Source: a bacterium (GTDB taxonomy: Bacteria; Electryoneota; RPQS01). Taken from it: a DNA stretch of 49,579 nt. Position numbers and translations under genes: made by a program. Position 1 is the stretch's first letter. Every line of letters starts with the position of its first letter. The stretch is taken from contig JAHJDG010000166.1 in assembly GCA_018812265.1 (NCBI GenBank), positions 1-49,579 of the forward strand, in the 5' to 3' direction. Shown here piece by piece: positions 29,608 through 45,881 of this stretch. The notes below the pieces were generated by a model that saw only the letters and a program-made list of their open reading frames with translations, ran no database searches and was not told the DNA's origin.

Positions 29608-30278
29608 GCTTCGGTCTCGTGCTGCTCTGGTGATGAAAACGAATCAAAGAGTGGATTCGGATCGTTGTGTGAGACGCGCAACGGAAGGAATTATGCCTTC
29701 CTTGCCTCCCACTTGCGGCAAAAGGACGCGCCGATGCCCCGGTTTTCAATATTGATAATCCTCGTCCATGCGGTCGAATTCTTGCGGATTGCAACTATGC
29801 ACGACCATTCGGATCGGAACACCGTGAATCCCTTTGCCGATTCACGGTTTGCTCCCAACCGGGAGGGTGAACACGCCGCCCTAAAAGGCTGTAGGAGCCG
29901 CTTGTCCTATGATTAAGCCGGTGATCCCTCGACGTTCGTCCGTTAGAAGTGATGTGCTATCGCCAAGCGCACAGTAGAATGGATTGTCTGTGTGCCCATA
30001 CGTAGCATTTGCGATAGTGCGCCGTGTAAGACGCTGTTGCCACTCAACAACGTTACGTATGTTGTCGTCCGTTGGCGCAATCCGGTCTCGGTTTTGCTTA
30101 GTCTCTGGTGGCGGCGGACGAAAGCGACCCGGTTGTTTGCGGGCGCAATGTCAAGCTCCGCCCGCCGCATGGAATGGGCGACAACGCCCCATAGGATAGT
30201 CAGAAAGTCCCGAAGCACCGGGATGTACGAGAAAAGACAGCGGATGAAAGAGATCAGCCACAGGAAGGAAGTCAGACC
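29608..30278. other. 671-bp spacer between divergent units
   Basis: It contains one clear structure: ACCGTGAATC (29821-29830) and GATTCACGGT (29839-29848), a perfect 10-bp stem with an 8-base loop and only three T residues after it. Frames of up to about 150 codons cross the region on both strands but have no recognisable domain or good ribosome site. I see no RNA gene or mobile element. Confidence 0.5.
29821..29848. other. Perfect 10-bp inverted repeat, role unclear
   Basis: The arms ACCGTGAATC and GATTCACGGT flank an 8-base loop CCTTTGCC. It could be a weak terminator on the plus strand, though no gene is established just upstream, or a binding or structural site. Confidence 0.4.
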
Positions 30279-31076
30279 GTGATTCGAATCAACTCCCAAC
30301 CGCAGGACCCCCACGCGAAGCCCGCCACGAAACCACCGGAGGACGTGCAGGGGCAGGATCTCCAGATGGTTGATCTGGCCTTCCTGGGGTCTCTGATCCC
30401 GGGGATCGTGCACAACCTCGCCACGCCCATGTCGGGAGTGCTGGGGGCGACTCAGCTACTGGAAAACCGAATCGCCAGCCTGGTGGAGTCCGTCCGAAGC
30501 ATTCAGGATTTGGACGATGACCGGCGAACCGAGCTGCTGAACCTTTCCGACCGCAACCGCGCCAGCGTGGATATCCTCGCCCGTAACGCACGTCATCTGG
30601 CCGACATCCTTCAGGTCGTGGTTCAGCGTCTGACCCGTAGCAGTGCGGCAACCAAAGGGTCTTATTGTCTCAACGAGCTTCTGCAGAACGAACTACATTT
30701 CCTGGAAGCCAACCTGACCTTCAAGCACAAGGTGAAAAAACAGGTGTCGCTCGCCCCCAACCTCCCGGCGGCGAAATGCGTCTATGCGCACGTGGTGGGC
30801 GTCATAGATGAATTCGTCACCTGCGTCCTGGGGATCCACGACTCGAATCAGGGGCCGCTCGAGATGGAGTTCGCGACGGAGAGCGCGGATTCACACGTGT
30901 GCTTGAACCTGACGGCGAGATTTGCTCCCCGTAATCCCGTCGAGTCGCTTGCGGGAACCATGTTCGAGGTTCATTTGACTCGGCTCGATGCGGACGGCTG
31001 GGACGTGGACTGGGACAACGCCGGCGGGAATCAACGACTGCGTCTGTGTTGTCCGCTCGGGCAGGCTAAGGCTTGA
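30279..31076 (+). CDS. Histidine-kinase-like DHp protein without an ATP-binding domain
   Basis: The protein has 265 residues from GTG 30279, with AGGAAGGAA upstream. Residues about 34-60 read LAFLGSLIPGIVHNLATPMSGVLGATQLLE. This is an H-box of the two-component kinase dimerisation domain with His45 as the likely phosphorylated residue. A second helix with a leucine pattern follows at about 85-115. The C-terminal half, where a HATPase domain would be, lacks the N-box asparagine, the DxGxG box and the G2 loop. It therefore may be a phosphotransferase like Spo0B or ChpT, which keep only the fold. No sensor domain, signal peptide or response regulator is adjacent. Function is inferred. Confidence 0.7.
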   Translation: MIRINSQPQDPHAKPATKPPEDVQGQDLQMVDLAFLGSLIPGIVHNLATPMSGVLGATQLLENRIASLVESVRSIQDLDDDRRTELLNLSDRNRASVDILARNARHLADILQVVVQRLTRSSAATKGSYCLNELLQNELHFLEANLTFKHKVKKQVSLAPNLPAAKCVYAHVVGVIDEFVTCVLGIHDSNQGPLEMEFATESADSHVCLNLTARFAPRNPVESLAGTMFEVHLTRLDADGWDVDWDNAGGNQRLRLCCPLGQAKA

Positions 31077-31127
31077 TTCCGTCGCAATCTTTCCGTACCT
31101 TGAGGTGATCGGATTCCGACCACCGCA

Positions 31128-31155
31128 ACCATCGAGACCTGCGGGTCTCGATGGT
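31128..31155 (+). terminator. Terminator-like hairpin after the DHp protein gene
   Basis: A perfect 12-bp stem ACCATCGAGACC/GGTCTCGATGGT (31128-31139 with 31144-31155) closes on the tetraloop TGCG. It starts 52 bases after the stop. The following GTTTC is only weakly T-rich. Confidence 0.65.
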
Positions 31156-31214
31156 GTTTCGGGGTGTTCGGTGCAATTGACATCAACGACGATCCGTCAT
31201 TCCCCCGCGACGCT

Positions 31215-32087
31215 ATGCCCGAGATTCCGCGTTCCTGTTTCGCCCACGCCCGCTCGCTCTCGCTCGAGACCGAGCTGGCCCTGGAAGCCGCTCGCCGCGG
31301 CGGAGAAGTCTTGCGATCCCACTGGATGCGACTTCAGAGTGACCAGATTCGTGAGAAGGGCAAAGGAGATCTCGTCACGTCAGCCGATCTGGCGGCGGAA
31401 GAAGAGATCACTTCGTTTCTGCGACGCGAAACTCCCGAGGCGGCCGTCATTTCCGAGGAAGGGACCAACTACGGAGGATCGCAACACGTCTGGTACGTGG
31501 ATCCCCTCGACGGCACCACCAATTTCGTTCAGCAATTCCCCGTCTTCGCCGTCAGCATCGCGTTCGTGGAGTCCCCCGCAACGTCGGGCGATCAGGTGAA
31601 AAGTGGCGTCGTCTACAATCCCGTCAGTGGCGAAATATTCTATGCCGCTCGCGGTCGCGGAAGTTACTTGAAAGAGTCTCGTCTCACCGGCTCACCCAAG
31701 AATCACTTGGGCGACGCGGTCGTCGCAACGGGTTTCCCGCGCCGGTACCATACCGAGCTCGCCGCCTATTTGCGGGAGTTCGATCAGATCTTCCGGCAGT
31801 GCCGCGCCGTCCGCCGGGCCGGTGCCGCCGCTCTGGATCTTTGCTGGACGGCTCAGGGTATCTTCGACGCCTTCTGGGAGCATCACCTTTCGCCGTGGGA
31901 CATCGCGGCGGGAGCGCTCATCGTCGAAGAGACCGGCGGAATCTGTACCGATTTCGAGGGATCCCGCGACTTCATTCAGCGTGGCGATATCCTCGGCGCC
32001 AATCCCGCGCTACATCGCGCCTTGCTGGATATTATCCGAACTCAACGTTCCGGAGTCTCCACCGACGCGTCTGCCGCTCCCGATTGA
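31215..32087 (+). CDS. suhB: Inositol monophosphatase family enzyme
   Basis: The protein has 290 residues from ATG 31215; GTG 31164 is an in-frame alternative that adds 17 residues just past the terminator hairpin. Metal-binding motifs are ISEEGT with the first glutamate, WYVDPLDGTTNF, and the C-terminal SPWDIAAGALIVEETGG. The family dephosphorylates inositol-1-phosphate or related sugar phosphates such as histidinol phosphate and fructose-1,6-bisphosphate. The exact substrate cannot be read here. SuhB is the common bacterial name, used loosely. It appears to be a single-gene unit flanked by hairpins on both sides. Confidence 0.9.
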   Translation: MPEIPRSCFAHARSLSLETELALEAARRGGEVLRSHWMRLQSDQIREKGKGDLVTSADLAAEEEITSFLRRETPEAAVISEEGTNYGGSQHVWYVDPLDGTTNFVQQFPVFAVSIAFVESPATSGDQVKSGVVYNPVSGEIFYAARGRGSYLKESRLTGSPKNHLGDAVVATGFPRRYHTELAAYLREFDQIFRQCRAVRRAGAAALDLCWTAQGIFDAFWEHHLSPWDIAAGALIVEETGGICTDFEGSRDFIQRGDILGANPALHRALLDIIRTQRSGVSTDASAAPD

Positions 32088-34211: not shown

Positions 34212-36893
34212 CTACCGTACCAGATGTAACGTCTTGGCCATCGAACCCGAACTTCCCTCCAGCCGATACACGTATACTCCGCTTGTCAGAGGAGTTCCCG
34301 CGTCGTTCCTGCCGTTAAAGAGGATCGTCATCTCCGATCCGGTGCCACGGCCCGCATACAGCGTTCGCACTTCCTGACCGAGTAGATTGTACACGCGTAA
34401 AGTGGTTACCGTATTCTGCGGAGCGACAAACCGGATTGCGGTCGTCGGATTGAAGGGATTGGGATAGTTTTGTTCAAGCGTGAGAGAAAGAGGGATGAAC
34501 GGCGACTCCGAGACAAACGAGATCGAATCCCCGAACCACGCAAAGAATCGAGCCAGCAGATCATCGCGCGTGTCCGTGTTCCCGACTCCCGAAACGCCTT
34601 CCAGACCGAAACTCAAGAACACGAATCGCCCCGTGCTGTACTCTCCGGCCACTCCGCAGACTGCCGCCGAGTCACCGGAATAGTGGAAGATGGTCTGTCC
34701 GTCTCCGATAACATACACGGAAGCCGGACTGTTCTGGTTCTGCGCGCCCTGCGATCCGATCAGATACGCTTCCACGCCGTCGGTAATGGGATTGCCTGCA
34801 TAGCCGTAGAATCGCCGCTGCTCCGTGTTCGGCGCTCGCAGCGAGCAGGCGAGTACATCGCTCAGGAAAGACGAACCGGACCCCAAATCGTCCGCGATAT
34901 CCTGGCCGGTCAGGAGCAGATGTCCGCCCTCGTTCAGATACGAACTCAGAACAGCTTGCTCGCGGAAGTCCAGCGTGGAGATCGAATCGTTGCCGGTGAA
35001 CCAGATGACCGTGGGCACATTGAAGATATCCGGTGCACCAGCCGCCGCGCAGTCCCACCAGCGAATGCGCAGATCGAAACTGTCCAGAGAAGAAAGATAA
35101 AAGGATTCGAACACATCTCCGTTATCGTCATCCACCAGCACCACGTCGGCAAACGGAATCACGAAGTCCACAGTCTGAGGTATCGTTCCCGGAGCCAGCT
35201 CGATCCTCCGCTCCGTGAGCATGAGCGGAGTAGGCGGGATCACGCGAATGGTGTTCATGCCCGCCATTAGTTTCCGGCTTCCGTTCGTATAGAGACTATC
35301 GGTGGTCTGTTCGACGAAAGTCCAGGCCGAGTCGGGATAGCCCTCGTGATAGAACTCCACGCGCACCGGAAACGGTGGAGGAACCGGTTCCTCGGTGGTG
35401 ATCGCACCCTCCACGTTCACGCCGCGCCGGATATCGAACGCCACCGTGATCGTGTCGTTGGCCGGATTTTCATCTCCCGTTGCGAACACCGAAAGTTGGA
35501 GGGGTGAGACCGGTGGTAGAGTCTCGTTATCCGGCAAGACCCAAAGCCGCGCGAACGACAGGACGGAGTCCGATCCCGCCTCCAGCTCCACCGCCATCGA
35601 ATCGAGGAAAGTCTGTCCCGATACGCGAGTGCGGATCGTCAGCGGCATCTGACTGGCGTTGAGGATTCGCGCCGCCACGATCAGCGAGTCTCCCGCCAGA
35701 TAGGGAAGAGTGGAAATCGGCGAAACGTACCCCACCGCAATCGCATCTACCACCGGCAGAGCATCAATGATCCGCTCCATTCCCATCCAACCCATGTACG
35801 CGCTGACCCACGAATGATCGTTGGTGACGGGATAGTTTCTTCCGGGAGGAATTCCACCGTCGTGGTCCGTGTCCAGTCCGATCAGCGAATCGGTGATGTA
35901 TACGGCGTTCCCCCAGTAGAGCGAATCCTGCGTAATCTGAAAGCACACGTGCTGCGCGTTGCAGTACCACGTGTTGAAGGCGTGGTTCCATGTTCCGACC
36001 GGCTGCCAGACGTCGAGCAGCGGCCCGTATTGCGTGAGCCATACCCGTCCGCTGTCGGGATACTCGCGGAACAGGCTTTCGCAGACTCCCCATAGAGCCG
36101 TTCCGCCGCACAGCGCCCACGTCTCGTTCTGATAGAGACGCTGCGGATTTGACTCAAACCATGTACGTAGACGGCGTGCTTCGTTGAGTGCGAACTGCCG
36201 CCAGTCGGCGCGGCCGCGATAGAGCGTGTGCGGATACAGCCCGCCGATTCCCAGACCTTGCGCGCACGGATTGAGTTGGCCGAGTCCCGTGCTGTTGGGA
36301 TCGTAGTCGAGCGGATGACCTACCACCCACAGCGCGCAACTGTCCGCATACCACGTCCATGTGGTATCATTGTAGGCTTGGCGGTAGATGCGTTCGGCCT
36401 CGAAACCCCAGCCGCAGTTGTGGATCGCATAATAGCCGCCGCCTTCGCGCCACGCCGGAAATCGCTGGCAGTAGCCTTGCGCGAGGCGGATCCGCGGCCC
36501 GTAGCTGGCCGTGTCTCCCGTCCACACCGCATATTGCGACCAGACTCGAATCGCTTCCTGTGTGTTGTCGGTTTCGATGATGCCGGCATCGCTGCCGCTC
36601 TCACCCTCGATCATTCCGCCACGATTCGCTCCCGTCTCCGTGTATTGCATGGACACGAGGAAATCGCACAGCAACCGATAGTGCGCGAAGTAGGCGATCT
36701 CATCCAGTGATGCGCGCTGATCGCGCGGGCGAATGAATCTTGGCTCACCGGCGGCTCCACTCCGCGCGAACTCCTCGGCTATTTGCTCGGGAGTCCAATA
36801 CGGCGTGGCCAGAGCGGTGGCTGCGATGAACATACCAAACACCAGTGCAGCCCACCGGAAAAATGAAAGTAGAGAAGTTGTTCCTGCCATCAT
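34212..36893 (-). CDS. Large secreted protein with T9SS-type sorting domain
   Basis: The protein has 893 residues from ATG 36893; a second ATG follows at 36890. A signal peptide (LVFGMFIAATALA) precedes a region of about 350 residues with repeated Trp/Tyr-rich helical segments (GGGYYAIHNCGWGFEAERIYRQAYN, TWYADSCALWVVGHP, NHAFNTWYCNAQHVCFQ). It has the look of an alpha/alpha-toroid enzyme, perhaps a polysaccharide-degrading or epimerase-like domain, but I cannot name it. Beta domains follow, then a module at about 600-780 shared with the 986-residue metallopeptidase. The sorting domain at the end reads QNYPNPFNPTTAIRF. It sits 26 bases after the broken epimerase gene. Confidence 0.8.
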   Translation of the reverse strand: MMAGTTSLLSFFRWAALVFGMFIAATALATPYWTPEQIAEEFARSGAAGEPRFIRPRDQRASLDEIAYFAHYRLLCDFLVSMQYTETGANRGGMIEGESGSDAGIIETDNTQEAIRVWSQYAVWTGDTASYGPRIRLAQGYCQRFPAWREGGGYYAIHNCGWGFEAERIYRQAYNDTTWTWYADSCALWVVGHPLDYDPNSTGLGQLNPCAQGLGIGGLYPHTLYRGRADWRQFALNEARRLRTWFESNPQRLYQNETWALCGGTALWGVCESLFREYPDSGRVWLTQYGPLLDVWQPVGTWNHAFNTWYCNAQHVCFQITQDSLYWGNAVYITDSLIGLDTDHDGGIPPGRNYPVTNDHSWVSAYMGWMGMERIIDALPVVDAIAVGYVSPISTLPYLAGDSLIVAARILNASQMPLTIRTRVSGQTFLDSMAVELEAGSDSVLSFARLWVLPDNETLPPVSPLQLSVFATGDENPANDTITVAFDIRRGVNVEGAITTEEPVPPPFPVRVEFYHEGYPDSAWTFVEQTTDSLYTNGSRKLMAGMNTIRVIPPTPLMLTERRIELAPGTIPQTVDFVIPFADVVLVDDDNGDVFESFYLSSLDSFDLRIRWWDCAAAGAPDIFNVPTVIWFTGNDSISTLDFREQAVLSSYLNEGGHLLLTGQDIADDLGSGSSFLSDVLACSLRAPNTEQRRFYGYAGNPITDGVEAYLIGSQGAQNQNSPASVYVIGDGQTIFHYSGDSAAVCGVAGEYSTGRFVFLSFGLEGVSGVGNTDTRDDLLARFFAWFGDSISFVSESPFIPLSLTLEQNYPNPFNPTTAIRFVAPQNTVTTLRVYNLLGQEVRTLYAGRGTGSEMTILFNGRNDAGTPLTSGVYVYRLEGSSGSMAKTLHLVR

Positions 36894-39787: not shown

Positions 39788-40420
39788 GTGAGAATCCGTA
39801 CTCCGATCAACATCCCTCCATCGTCCGGCGAATGCACGGATCGCTTCTGGACGGCCGCCAACTGCATCAGCTTGGGCCGGCTGTTGCTGCTCGTCCCGTT
39901 GTTCGTGTTTCTGCGGATGGGCGAGCGCGGGAATGGCAATCTGTGGGCTTTGGCGGTGATGGGAATCGCGCTGATCTCCGACATGCTGGACGGAATGGTG
40001 GCGCGCTGGCTCAAGCGGGAATCGGTGTGGGGACGGGTGTTGGATCCGATTGCCGACAAGGTCTGGATCGCGGGGCTGGCTCTGTTTCTGGCTCTACCGT
40101 GGCGGGAGCATCCGCTGCCGGTCGGATTTCTGGCTTTGGTTCTGGCGCGGGACGTGGCGATTGTGGTGCTGGCCGCCTATGCATACGGGCGGACGGGGGT
40201 GGTGATGAAATCCAACTGGGCGGGCAAAATCGCCATGACCTTCACGGCCTTCACGCTGATCGTCTATACCATCTATTGCCACTGGATACCTGTCCCGCTG
40301 ATCTGGCTGCGGCCGGTGAACGTGATGTGGTTCACGGTGATTCTGCTGGTGCTGTCGGGGATTGTCTATTCCTATCGTTTCCAAAGACTTCTCGCCGCTC
40401 ATGCGGAAAATAAAAAGTGA
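39788..40420 (+). CDS. pgsA: CDP-alcohol phosphatidyltransferase (PgsA-like)
   Basis: The protein has 210 residues from GTG 39788, 17 bases after purF. The family motif DGxxAR(x8)GxxxD(x3)D is exact in DMLDGMVARWLKRESVWGRVLDPIADK, and about five hydrophobic helices surround it. The nearest function is CDP-diacylglycerol-glycerol-3-phosphate phosphatidyltransferase, which makes phosphatidylglycerol phosphate at the inner membrane. Other alcohols (inositol, serine) use the same motif, so the acceptor is inferred. No good ribosome site is visible before GTG 39788, and the true start is uncertain. The stretch after the stop is intergenic. Confidence 0.85.
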   Translation: MRIRTPINIPPSSGECTDRFWTAANCISLGRLLLLVPLFVFLRMGERGNGNLWALAVMGIALISDMLDGMVARWLKRESVWGRVLDPIADKVWIAGLALFLALPWREHPLPVGFLALVLARDVAIVVLAAYAYGRTGVVMKSNWAGKIAMTFTAFTLIVYTIYCHWIPVPLIWLRPVNVMWFTVILLVLSGIVYSYRFQRLLAAHAENKK

Positions 40421-40777
40421 CCAAACGAACTCGGCAACCTGAAGAAAATTAAAAACTTCAAACTACAAACTTGAAAGAAAAACGGGAACTCGGAATGTGA
40501 AGGAAAAGGGCTGGGGGCAGGGGGGATGGAAAGAGGGATTGCGGAAGTTATCCACAATATATGAACAATTGTTCAGAAAGTCAAGGGGGGTGTAAAAGCG
40601 ATTGAGATTTGATATTTAAAGGTATGGGGGACAGGGAGGGATGATGAGAGGCGGGTGCGAGAAGCGTGAATCAGGGGGGAAGGACAGCGCCGTATTGCCG
40701 TCAAGGCAAATGCTATCTTGATGGGGCGATGGTCAACAAGATGCATAAAGGAAAAAGTTATATCAGGGAAATAGTGA
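40421..40777. other. 357-bp purine-rich spacer with G-runs, DnaA-box match and palindrome
   Basis: The plus strand is strongly purine-rich. Clusters of G-runs (40508-40537 and 40626-40655) could form G-quadruplexes. Between them are the perfect DnaA-box word TTATCCACA (40548-40556) and a 14-bp palindrome TGAACAATTGTTCA (40562-40575). A short inverted repeat TTGCC/GGCAA lies at 40695-40709. No reading frame or promoter stands out. Only one DnaA box is present, so a replication origin is not supported by this alone. Confidence 0.5.
40548..40556 (+). promoter_or_regulatory. DnaA-box consensus match
   Basis: TTATCCACA matches the E. coli-type DnaA box exactly. A single 9-base match can occur by chance in a genome, but here it lies six bases from a 14-bp palindrome. 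Binding is unproven. Confidence 0.35.
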
Positions 40778-41845
40778 GTGCAAATGCAAACACTAGTGAA
40801 TTATATTTGGATTGCCCTTAACAGTCCATGGATCAGTCTTTGTGGATTGATCATAGGACTACTTGGGTTACTGCTTTTTCTTCGCTCCAAGAGAGACAAA
40901 CGTCCATGCTTTGCCCAGCGAAGCACAAATATCCTGACGGACCTGAAAAGCTCATTTGGCGCAATCGAGGTCACCTATGAATCACAACCCATCCAGAGTT
41001 TTACCAGCACACGCATTGCATTCTGGAACGAGGGGCGTGAAACCATCAATCGTGCTGACATACCTTCAGGGGCTCCCATTACTATTCGTGTAGGTGAAGG
41101 CCATCGGATACTTGAGGTGAAGACGGTCTTCAGAGTCGAAGAAGCGAATCAGATGGATATTCACATATCGGATAGCGAAGCGCGCCAGGCGGCAATATCA
41201 TTTGAATATCTTGACCAGGACCAAGGTGGAGTTGTGGAAATACTTCACACGGGAACATCGGATTCAGACATATCAATATCGGGCTTGGTCAAGGGAACCC
41301 GCCTCAGGAAAAGAGTGCTCGCTGACGAGTTAGATCTAAGCATCGGCCGAATTTGCCTCCGGTCGGGGAAGGCAGCCCTCGTGGTGTCGCTTCTGTTTAC
41401 GCTAGTCTTGTTAGTGGCTGCGTGGCCAATTTGGAGGCAAACGCCACAAGATTCACATGTCTTTGCAGACATAGACTCGACTTGGGCACAGATAGTAATC
41501 GGATTTGATACATCGGCAGAACAAATAAAACATATCGCCCAAATTCAGGCGCATCTTTTTAAGATTTCATCGTTGGACTCGCTGTCTGAGGTTTCATCGT
41601 TGGACTCGTTATATGCTTGCCAAATATCCAATTCTGCCGCACTTGCCACTCATGCTCGGACTGTGGCAAAAGGTTTTAGGGAACTTGCACGAACTGAAGA
41701 GAATTCAAACGCGGCCTGGAGACAGATTCGACACAATAGGCAGATGTTGCGATATTTTGTGATAATATTTTTCATCTTTGCCTGGATACCAGTTCTTGTT
41801 GGCATAAGGCGTAGTTCGCCAAGGGAATTTAACGCATATTTCTAA
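40778..41845 (+). CDS. AT-richer membrane protein of unknown function
   Basis: The protein has about 355 residues from GTG 40778 or ATG 40784 (a weak CAGGGA ribosome site). Three hydrophobic segments are seen: about 18-35, 197-217 and 327-345. Between the first and second lies a soluble region with TSTRIAFWNEGRETINRADIPSGAPI, a beta-sheet pattern I associate with uncharacterised membrane proteins carried on mobile or defence-type islands, though I cannot name a family. The third-position composition is visibly more AT-rich than the surrounding genes. It stands alone between a purine-rich spacer and a hairpin-rich spacer. This suggests recent gain by transfer. No operon partner is visible. Confidence 0.75.
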   Translation: MQMQTLVNYIWIALNSPWISLCGLIIGLLGLLLFLRSKRDKRPCFAQRSTNILTDLKSSFGAIEVTYESQPIQSFTSTRIAFWNEGRETINRADIPSGAPITIRVGEGHRILEVKTVFRVEEANQMDIHISDSEARQAAISFEYLDQDQGGVVEILHTGTSDSDISISGLVKGTRLRKRVLADELDLSIGRICLRSGKAALVVSLLFTLVLLVAAWPIWRQTPQDSHVFADIDSTWAQIVIGFDTSAEQIKHIAQIQAHLFKISSLDSLSEVSSLDSLYACQISNSAALATHARTVAKGFRELARTEENSNAAWRQIRHNRQMLRYFVIIFFIFAWIPVLVGIRRSSPREFNAYF

Positions 41846-42153
41846 ATTAGCTCTTTAACAAGCATTGTAATAAATAGCGTTGCCGTGAAGAGAACAAGAG
41901 AAATTGGGCCTAAACATCGTGATGTGACGGATTTTATCTTGGCGCGGTGTCCAGAATGACAATGGGGGAGATTCCGGCCGGGTTGCGCGCAGGATCGAGG
42001 TTCTTTCATTTTCATGTGTCGGCGCTTAACCCGGTTCGGCGAGGAAGGTAGTGGATACGCCATTGCCGGTCAGGAGACCGACAACAGCGGAAGATAGCGT
42101 AAGGGAGAAATTCCGGCAGGGATGCAATCCCCGCTCGGCGAGCGAGGTTTTCG

Positions 42154-44007: not shown

Positions 44008-44080
44008 GCTGGCGTAGCTCAACTGGTAGAGCAGTTGATTTGTAATCAACCGGTTGCGGGTTCAAGTCCTGTCGCCAGCT
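44008..44080 (+). tRNA. tRNA-Thr (anticodon TGT)
   Basis: The 73-base cloverleaf has acceptor GCTGGCG/CGCCAGC. Anticodon TGT (44041-44043) sits in loop TTTGTAA, so it reads ACA threonine codons. The T arm has GGTTCAAGTCC. The 3' CCA is not encoded (the sequence continues CTG). It corresponds in order to E. coli thrU. Confidence 0.97.
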
Positions 44081-44126
44081 CTGAGCGTTCGCTGTCAGAA
44101 CGTTTGTCCGCCGGCGGAGGCATTGA

Positions 44127-44209
44127 GGTGGCGTGCCCGAGTGGCTAAAGGGGGCAGACTGTAAATCTGCTGGCAGACGCCTACGGTGGTTCGAATCCAT
44201 CCGCCACCA
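44127..44209 (+). tRNA. tRNA-Tyr (anticodon GTA)
   Basis: The 83-base class II tRNA has a long variable arm and acceptor GGTGGCG/CGCCACC. Anticodon GTA (44161-44163) lies in loop CTGTAAA, and the T arm has GGTTCGAATCC. CCA is not encoded. It matches the position of E. coli tyrU. Confidence 0.97.
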
Positions 44210-44251
44210 CCGGAGATCCCTCTGAAGGGACGGTGAACATACTGTGAATTC

Positions 44252-44303
44252 GAGCCTTGCGATGACACTCTGGATGGACTGGTCATCAAAGGGGGCTCTT
44301 TTT
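44252..44303 (+). terminator. Terminator-like structure inside the tRNA operon (possible attenuator)
   Basis: An outer GAGCC/GGCTC (44252-44256 with 44294-44298) encloses an inner GATGAC/GTCATC stem (44261-44266 with 44282-44287). Five T residues follow at once and another T run a few bases later. It lies between tRNA-Tyr and tRNA-Gly. Confidence 0.45.
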
Positions 44304-44317
44304 CGCGCTTTTTTCAT

Positions 44318-44393
44318 GCGGGCGTAGCTCAGTTGGTAGAGCATCAGCCTTCCAAGCTGAGGGTCGCGGGTTCGAGTCTCGTCGCCCGCTCCA
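44318..44393 (+). tRNA. tRNA-Gly (anticodon TCC)
   Basis: The 76 bases include an encoded CCA. The acceptor is GCGGGCG/CGCCCGC. Anticodon TCC (44351-44353) in loop CTTCCAA reads GGA, with GGTTCGAGTC in the T arm. It matches the position of E. coli glyT. Confidence 0.97.
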
Positions 44394-44428
44394 AGGACCG
44401 TCAGGTATAGTCGTTTGCCAGAGATTCT

Positions 44429-44501
<73 letters not shown>

Positions 44502-44570
44502 CGACTCCCGATTTTGCGATCAAGTGTTTGAAATAGGAAAGCAGGCCATTTCTGAGGAGGATCATCAAGC

Positions 44571-45761
44571 ATGGCTAAGGCCAAGTTTGAGCGCACCAAG
44601 CCCCACGTGAACATCGGAACGATCGGCCACGTGGATCACGGCAAGACCACGCTCACGGCGGCGATCACCCAGGTGCTGTCCCTGAAAGGACTCGCCCAGG
44701 CGAAGAAATTCGAAGACATTGACAACGCGCCTGAAGAGAAGGCACGCGGGGTCACGATCAACGTCCACCACGCCGAATACGAGACCGAGAAGCGCCACTA
44801 CGCGCACGTGGACTGTCCCGGCCACGCCGACTACATCAAGAATATGGTCACCGGCGCAGCTCAGATGGACGGCGCGATTTTGGTGGTGTCGGCGGCCGAC
44901 GGTCCCATGCCCCAGACGCGCGAGCACGTGCTCTTGGCCCGTCAAGTAAACGTACCGGCGCTGGTCGTCTTCCTGAACAAGGTGGATCAGGTGGATGATC
45001 CGGAACTTTTGGAGCTAGTGGAAGTCGAGGTTCGCGACCTGCTGACCAAGTACAATTTCCCCGGCGACGAGATTCCCGTCATCCGTGGTTCGGCATTGGA
45101 AGCCTTGTCGGCTCCGACCGACGCCAAGAAAACGGAATGCATCACCCAGCTCATGGAAGCGGTGGATGGTTACATTCCCGAGCCGGTGCGGGCGACCGAC
45201 AAGCCGTTTTTGATGCCGGTCGAGGACGTATTCTCGATCACCGGCCGCGGCACGGTGGGCACCGGTCGTATTGAACGGGGCGTCGTGAAGGTCGGACAGG
45301 AAGTGGAGATCGTCGGACTGGGCGCTCACAAGAAGACCGTGGTGACCGGAGTGGAGATGTTCCGCAAGCTGCTTGACGACGGTCAGGCCGGCGACAATGT
45401 GGGTCTCCTGATGCGCGGCGTGGACAAGGAGGAAATCGAACGCGGCATGGTGGTGGTGACTCCGGGTTCGATCAAGCCTCACATGAAGTTCGAAGCTCAG
45501 GTGTACGTTTTGTCCAAGGAAGAGGGCGGACGCCATACTCCGTTTTTCAACGGCTATCGTCCGCAGTTCTTCTTCCGTACGACCGACGTGACCGGTTCGA
45601 TCAAGATGCCGGAAGGCGTGGAAATGGTCATGCCCGGCGATAACATCGTCATGACCGTGGAATTGATTACCGACGTGGCGATGGACGAAGGACTGCGCTT
45701 CGCGATTCGCGAAGGCGGCCGCACGGTCGGCGCCGGCGCCGTTACGAAAATTCTCGAGTAG
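44571..45761 (+). CDS. tuf: Elongation factor Tu
   Basis: The protein has 396 residues with a strong GAGGAGG ribosome site. The G1 loop is GHVDHGKT, followed by RGVTIN (effector region), DCPGHADY (G3), NKVD (G4) and SAL (G5). The beta-barrel domains have [13 protein letters not shown] and the C-terminal [10 protein letters not shown]. It delivers aminoacyl-tRNA to the ribosome. It is encoded after the four tRNA genes, as in the classic tufB operon, and is followed by tRNA-Trp and secE. The near-universal ARGITIN reads ARGVTIN here, a conservative change. Confidence 0.99.
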
Positions 45762-45784
45762 GCCGGAACCACGGCAAAGGATTT

Positions 45785-45804
45785 GGCTCGGCGGGAGCCG
45801 AGCC
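45785..45804. repeat. Hairpin between tuf and tRNA-Trp
   Basis: GGCTCGGC (45785-45792) and GCCGAGCC (45797-45804) pair perfectly around GGGA. It has no T tract, so it is not a normal terminator. It shares CTCGGCGGGA with the spacer before cysS (42174-42183). Confidence 0.65.
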
Positions 45805-45806
45805 AT

Positions 45807-45881
45807 ACGGCCGTAGCTCAATGGTAGAGTCCCGGTCTCCAAAACCGGTTGTTGGGGGTTCGAGTCCCTCCGGCCGTGCCA
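45807..45881 (+). tRNA. tRNA-Trp (anticodon CCA)
   Basis: The 75 bases include an encoded CCA end. The acceptor is ACGGCCG/CGGCCGT, and anticodon CCA (45839-45841) sits in loop CTCCAAA. It lies between tuf and secE, a common bacterial arrangement. Confidence 0.97.

Follow-up and report, generated by a model that had tools for sequence, protein, structure and literature searches.

The gene and its surroundings

The window, the whole stretch of 49,579 nucleotides that was analysed, carries on its forward strand an ORF of 265 aa (30279..31076). Its product is an ATP-less histidine-kinase-like protein and is predicted to be a histidine phosphotransferase. The ORF opens with a GTG start at 30279 and closes with TGA at 31076, and a Shine-Dalgarno-like AGGAAGGA (30262..30269, + strand) lies ahead of the start. 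The GC content by codon position (0.67/0.40/0.74) is coding-like. Orthologues were searched in 61 genomes, namely the source genome and 60 relatives, and the terms order and phylum are used here for the kinship groups as assigned. Eleven orthologues were found in 11 further genomes of the order, with identities of 29-64% to the window protein. The orthologue of G004 has a TAG stop a few residues early, and the conserved part is free of stops in all orthologues. Therefore, the ORF is not a chance frame. No membrane segment was seen in the protein on inspection by eye.

An inositol-monophosphatase (SuhB-like) gene, suhB (31215..32087, + strand), is the next gene downstream on the same strand in 12/12 loci. 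Its start was picked by homology, and an in-frame GTG is present at 31164. The next most constant neighbour clusters appear in 8 of the 12 loci, overlapping antisense frames being left aside. Outside the order, no family match was found near suhB in 18 fetched loci with flanks of up to 1.5 kb. A promoter-like TTGATT-N17-TACCTT (31073..31101, + strand) overlaps the stop codon of the gene. The pattern TTGxxx-N17-TA[TC][CT][TGC]T is found in 11 of the 12 orthologous loci, where it covers or borders the stop codon; it was picked after inspection, and 2000 letter shuffles gave a mean of 0.04 and a maximum of 2. A perfect 12-bp inverted repeat with a 4-nt loop follows between the gene and suhB (31128..31155, + strand). 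This hairpin has no T run. Hairpins with a T run and the same GTCTCG 3' arm stand ahead of suhB in four other genomes (G001, G003, G008, and G009). With the standard scan, no promoter and no terminator was called between the gene and suhB in the window. The simple reading of an operon with suhB was rejected because of the promoter-like element in 11/12 loci and the T-run hairpins in four. The element at 31073..31101 may instead drive suhB. Given its position on the stop codon and the hairpins before suhB, the adjacency of the two genes may reflect a suhB promoter lying inside the end of the gene. The promoter-like element and the hairpin (31073-31155) could also form an attenuator or a very short RNA.

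The preliminary description of this DNA had pointed out that the gene does not adjoin a response regulator. The same was seen for the orthologues. In-house HMMs (E<=1e-3) were run on all 49.6 kb of the window and on neighbourhoods of 5.6-20 kb for the 11 orthologues, and they returned no other REC, HisKA, or HATPase match. Some other features of the window were recorded. A cluster of tRNA-Thr, Tyr, Gly, and Thr genes, an elongation factor Tu gene (recognised by eye), and a tRNA-Trp gene follow each other at 44008-45881. The GC content dips to 0.49 at 40001-42000 against a background of 0.56-0.61, and the dip covers an ORF (40778-41845) in which hydrophobic stretches were seen by eye. The protein encoded at 34212-36893 has a type IX secretion sorting tail. 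Elsewhere in the source genome there is a REC-PglZ regulator (C45:1873-3459, L219), which we take to be PorX-like.

The kinase core and its lost ATP site

Alignment and the predicted model together confirmed the protein as a histidine-kinase core, composed of a DHp hairpin and a CA-like fold, that lacks an ATP site. In the pattern comparison, the N, G1, F, and G2 boxes were found in 0/12 family members, as opposed to 21/21 sister kinases. The sister kinases compared are ten REC-PAS kinases and 11 orphan kinases, and all boxes are present in 10/10 and 11/11, respectively. The preliminary description had read the protein in the same way from one sequence, with a clear DHp motif around His45 and a C-terminal half devoid of N, G1, and G2 boxes; both statements are now borne out by all 12 members.

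The HisKA-type H box holds His45 (codon 30411..30413, + strand) in the motif HN[LM][AS]TP, and H45, N46, T49, and P50 are invariant in 12/12 family members. There are 26 invariant residues among the 12 sequences, which include G37, P41, G42, S52, G53, G56, Q59, E62, R64, H150, E178, and T200 in addition to those of the box. The face that follows the histidine is highly conserved in all members. The sole Pfam match of the window protein is HisKA at residues 38-110, with a score of 20.9 bits under the cut-off of 26.9, and the HisKA profile is matched by all 12 members at E<=10. In NCBIfam, the window protein has no match near the cut-off. A DHp helical hairpin is predicted by the AlphaFold model and the alignment at residues 23-121 (30345..30641, + strand), and in the family it exceeds that of the sister kinases by about 26 residues. 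The Asn at H+1 was considered as a sign of kinase loss and ruled out; it carries no weight, being present in the 21 sister kinases as well.

The AlphaFold model was built on 12 sequences and has a pLDDT of 77.5 and a pTM of 0.62. It is composed of two long helices (residues 23-74 and 80-121) and an alpha/beta domain from about residue 124 to 262. The latter corresponds to a predicted degenerate CA (Bergerat-type) domain (30648..31064, + strand) without the G1, F, and G2 boxes or an ATP lid. A HATPase-like fold of the C-terminal half had been proposed as a check, and the predicted domain does align with the CA domain of NtrB (1r62) with a Z score of 15.6 and 2.3 A over 126 residues. Many other kinase CA domains also align with it. 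The second check had been the search for a conserved ATP lid by alignment. No lid was found, and the whole segment from G1 through F to G2, including the lid, is absent in 12/12 members. According to the alignment and the model, the N box is replaced by a helix at residues 169-186 (30783..30836, + strand). The first Asn of this box has become Glu178 in 12/12 members, and the position of the second is variable, with Asn in none of the 12. No Pfam HATPase_c match was obtained at E<=10 in any member, in a search where the HMMER filters lose most matches above about 0.1.

The arrangement of the DHp and CA parts in the model is uncertain because most whole-length structural matches have a large rmsd. 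The likeness to Spo0B and ChpT suggested in the preliminary description is supported on the ChpT side, since ChpT (4fpp) appeared at Foldseek rank 45 (E 1e-8) among the best 50 matches listed. DivL (4q20) is also among the structural matches. The absence of Spo0B among the best 50 Foldseek matches listed, and of both ChpT and Spo0B among the best 50 VIA structure matches listed, carries no weight. A profile search of the sequences of solved structures gave nothing convincing; its best match (E 0.12) was an unrelated protein.

Distribution and descent

Orthologues are present in 12/13 genomes of the order and in 0/26 other genomes of the phylum. The alignment profile scored 330.6-376.2 bits in the 12 genomes of the order and did not exceed 84.9 bits in the 26 others. 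A threshold of E 1e-12 is passed in 27/39 genomes because full kinases match the profile too. Open frames with lengths of 381 to 2533 aa hold the weaker matches listed. Of those from outside the order, L013 and L014 were opened, and both contain the N, G1, and G2 boxes. A pattern-based scan with one genome per species retrieved 14 relatives: seven weaker matches and seven orthologues, the latter on contigs equal in length to those of orthologues counted above. All of the seven orthologue records are metagenome-assembled genomes, and their labels include candidate division KSB1 and Calditrichaeota. The only genome of the order without the gene is G006, which is 88% complete. Neighbouring suhB is also missing there (E<=1e-20), and therefore an assembly gap is the probable cause. 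The presence of orthologues in 12/13 genomes argues for a retained function, and the conservation of the gene beside suhB throughout the order points to a core regulatory role in this lineage.

A maximum-likelihood tree of 57 rows placed the 12 family members inside a 100/98 clade of the order's own kinases. The other members of this clade are REC-PAS-HisKA-HATPase kinases and orphan PAS-type kinases of about 550 aa from the same order. The family branches off on a long stem (2.52 changes per column), and its exact sister within the clade is ambiguous. The tree comprises 17 of the 18 proteins of the source genome with paired HisKA and HATPase matches, taken genome-wide with in-house profiles. 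Kinase C126:2168-5002 was omitted because its segment appeared ill-defined, as were the kinases of this genome without the HisKA and HATPase pair. In addition, 20 kinases from other genomes were chosen by matching the window protein, and eight proteins of a second ATP-less family, described below, are in the tree; six of these eight were used in alignment A2. From this placement, the most likely origin of the protein is a PAS-type kinase of its own order, through duplication and then loss of the ATP site. Neither Spo0B nor ChpT is in the tree; from the placement inside the order's kinases and the lack of a Spo0B or HPTransfase profile match in 12/12 members, we infer an origin separate from both.

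Another group of proteins was noted in Thermodesulfobacteriota (L164-L167, e.g. L164:5965-6564). They have about 200 aa, an HN box followed by EANLxFKHKVKK, and no N, G1, or G2 patterns. In 4/4 loci they sit between a recR-like gene (by eye) and a gene of about 345 aa, which is dprA by Pfam in the two loci scanned. By their sequences, they are apparently another ATP-less derivative of kinases.

Function, candidate partners and known systems

The best explanation of these results is that the protein is a soluble, presumably dimeric histidine phosphotransferase of a phosphorelay, derived from a kinase. We assign it a probability of about 0.72. The gene of a PAS-type kinase of the order would have been duplicated, its ATP lid deleted, and its N box left to decay. 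In the presumed dimer, the DHp hairpins of the two subunits would assemble into a four-helix bundle. His45 would take the phosphate from the aspartate of one receiver and pass it to another receiver, and the ATP-less CA-like domain would serve in docking or stability rather than in catalysis. Since His45 and the DHp face are strictly conserved and there is no ATP site, the likely source of the phosphate is a phosphorylated receiver.

The foremost rival is that the protein works mainly as a response-regulator phosphatase. Using the DHp face and Thr49, it would drain a receiver of phosphate, the role initially suggested for PhyP as a phosphatase of PhyR (PMC5898713). According to the relevant passages of PMC3510030, HisKA proteins require Thr or Asn at H+4 for phosphatase activity and an acidic residue at H+1 for kinase activity, and Thr does occupy H+4 in 12/12 family members. 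However, the same Thr is found in sister kinases with an intact ATP site and the box 'HNINTPL'. Moreover, His45 is as invariant as Thr49, yet the exchange of His to Ala is described as modestly reducing the phosphatase activity of CrdS; in PleC, unlike CrdS, it abolished the activity (PMC3510030). We consider a phosphatase unlikely.

A pseudokinase scaffold or allosteric partner of the DivL type is quite improbable. It would bind a sister kinase or a phosphorylated receiver and carry no phosphate itself. The protein does retain the fold of the sister kinases and much of their DHp surface, and DivL is found among the structural matches as mentioned above. Against this, the His box with His45 is conserved in 12/12 members, and the longer DHp hairpin makes mixed dimers with the sister kinases less likely. 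That the protein remains a kinase that depends on ATP and binds it in a highly unusual site is scarcely credible: the CA-like fold is retained, but all four boxes and the lid segment are gone in 12/12 members. Phosphotransfer is favoured over these readings. Phosphotransfer itself and the branched phosphorelay proposed in the preliminary description are what we infer for the protein.

A search for an orphan hybrid kinase and response regulator had been suggested as a check, and the source genome (G000) contains hybrid kinases and orphan response regulators. It has 49 receiver, 26 HisKA (the window protein included), and 26 HATPase matches, with five proteins carrying a receiver C-terminal to the kinase core and many orphan receivers. 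A gene group was found in ten genomes, in which the gene of a REC-pseudoDHp-REC protein is followed by a REC-PAS kinase of the 100/98 clade. In 8/10 groups, a second ATP-less kinase-like protein precedes the REC-pseudoDHp-REC gene; it is a contig-end fragment in G006 and was not recognised in the group of G011. The group of the source genome (C106:23973-25031 and C229:3-2467; L224 and L205) is split by a contig end, where the two contigs overlap exactly by 20 bases. The other loci are L258-L264, L267, and L269. In the central DHp of the REC-pseudoDHp-REC protein, Asp replaces His in 10/10 aligned sequences that cover it. This protein is present at E<=1e-30 in 12/13 genomes of the order and 2/26 others. 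The second ATP-less protein was recognised by sequence in six genomes and the G006 fragment, and by position and H-box motif in G007 and G010. Its model has the DHp-CA plan (pLDDT 74.8) and aligns with the SrrAB kinase (6paj; Z 13.6, 4.5 A, 192 residues) and with DivL (4q20; Z 13.0, 5.0 A, 198 residues).

An orphan MerR-REC regulator (C158:19631-20227, L225) is 76-93% identical in ten other genomes of the order. It is thus present in 11/13 and missing from G005 (80% complete) and G003 (56% complete). Among the matches listed at E<=1e-20 for the 26 other genomes, none extends into the MerR part. A control orphan receiver, C203, is found in 12/13 genomes of the order with 54-77% identity and is less conserved than MerR-REC. 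Outside the order, C203 has matches of 31-43% identity only, which end by residue 139 of 160. The phyletic profile of this control is nearly identical, and MerR-REC was not singled out as a partner by that means. The hybrid kinase C183 was rejected as an order-specific partner because its relatives are found at E<=1e-60 in 34/39 genomes. The gene group of the second ATP-less protein, REC-pseudoDHp-REC, and REC-PAS kinase, together with the orphan MerR-REC, are the candidate partners. We put forward, tentatively and with considerable doubt, an order-wide core phosphorelay of degenerate kinases with MerR-REC as its output, which would be an independent analogue of the Spo0 and CckA-ChpT-CtrA relays. 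Its parts would be the window phosphotransferase, the second ATP-less protein (in most members examined), the REC-pseudoDHp(Asp)-REC hub, the REC-PAS kinase, and MerR-REC.

Phosphotransferases of pseudo-histidine-kinase origin are treated as a recognised class in the relevant part of PMC9981736. ChpT of Caulobacter (4fpp) is described in PMC3433190 as a phosphotransferase that shares the plan of class I kinases, a DHp hairpin with the phospho-His and a Bergerat-type domain without a working lid. The same account gives its ATP lid as substituted by extra helical turns, with no autokinase activity, whereas the lid segment of the window family is missing. The window family also differs from ChpT in that it falls within the kinases of its own order and has a DHp hairpin longer than that of its sister kinases. 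HPTransfase (PF10090), the Pfam family of ChpT, has no match at E<=10 in 12/12 members, and the window locus is not among the four matches of the source genome in an HPTransfase search at E<=0.1. Pfam holds Spo0B models, and none of the 12 members matches the Spo0B family at E<=10; the box of the window family is of the HisKA type, HN[LM][AS]TP. Spo0B of Bacillus is likewise kinase-derived, and its four-helix bundle is made from two subunits (as cited in PMC3433190 and PMC5898713). A classical HPt protein is not indicated either, as no Pfam HPt match was found and the model is a hairpin with an alpha/beta domain rather than a monomeric four-helix bundle. PhyT belongs to HisKA_2, which has no Pfam match in 12/12 family members. 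In the general stress response of alphaproteobacteria, PhyT/PhyP is a degenerated kinase that carries phosphate between receivers; the phosphate goes from SdrG to PhyR by way of PhyT, for which descent from a degenerated kinase is considered probable, as described in PMC5898713. PhyP is membrane-anchored with an HRxxN motif in that description, in contrast to the HN[LM][AS]TP motif and the lack of a membrane segment (by eye) in the window family.

In the open-licence literature, no such protein was found for this lineage, where searching by lineage name was too broad to count. The kind of protein is known. By sequence, the family appears to have its own origin and an extended DHp hairpin, and it stands outside the named families by Pfam. 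The kinase-derived phosphotransferases named in the cited papers are few, namely Spo0B, ChpT, and PhyT. Spo0B acts in sporulation and ChpT in the cell cycle. By the tree, the closest relatives of the window family are the REC-PAS and the orphan ~550-aa PAS kinases of the order, which share with it a segment like 'LNELLxxELxFLEAxLxFKHxVxK'. The 21 that were compared keep the N, G1, F, and G2 boxes, and the two that were scanned have PAS domains. Because the genomes that carry the family also retain intact kinases from its clade, the passage from kinase to phosphotransferase can be traced and tested here at the level of single residues.
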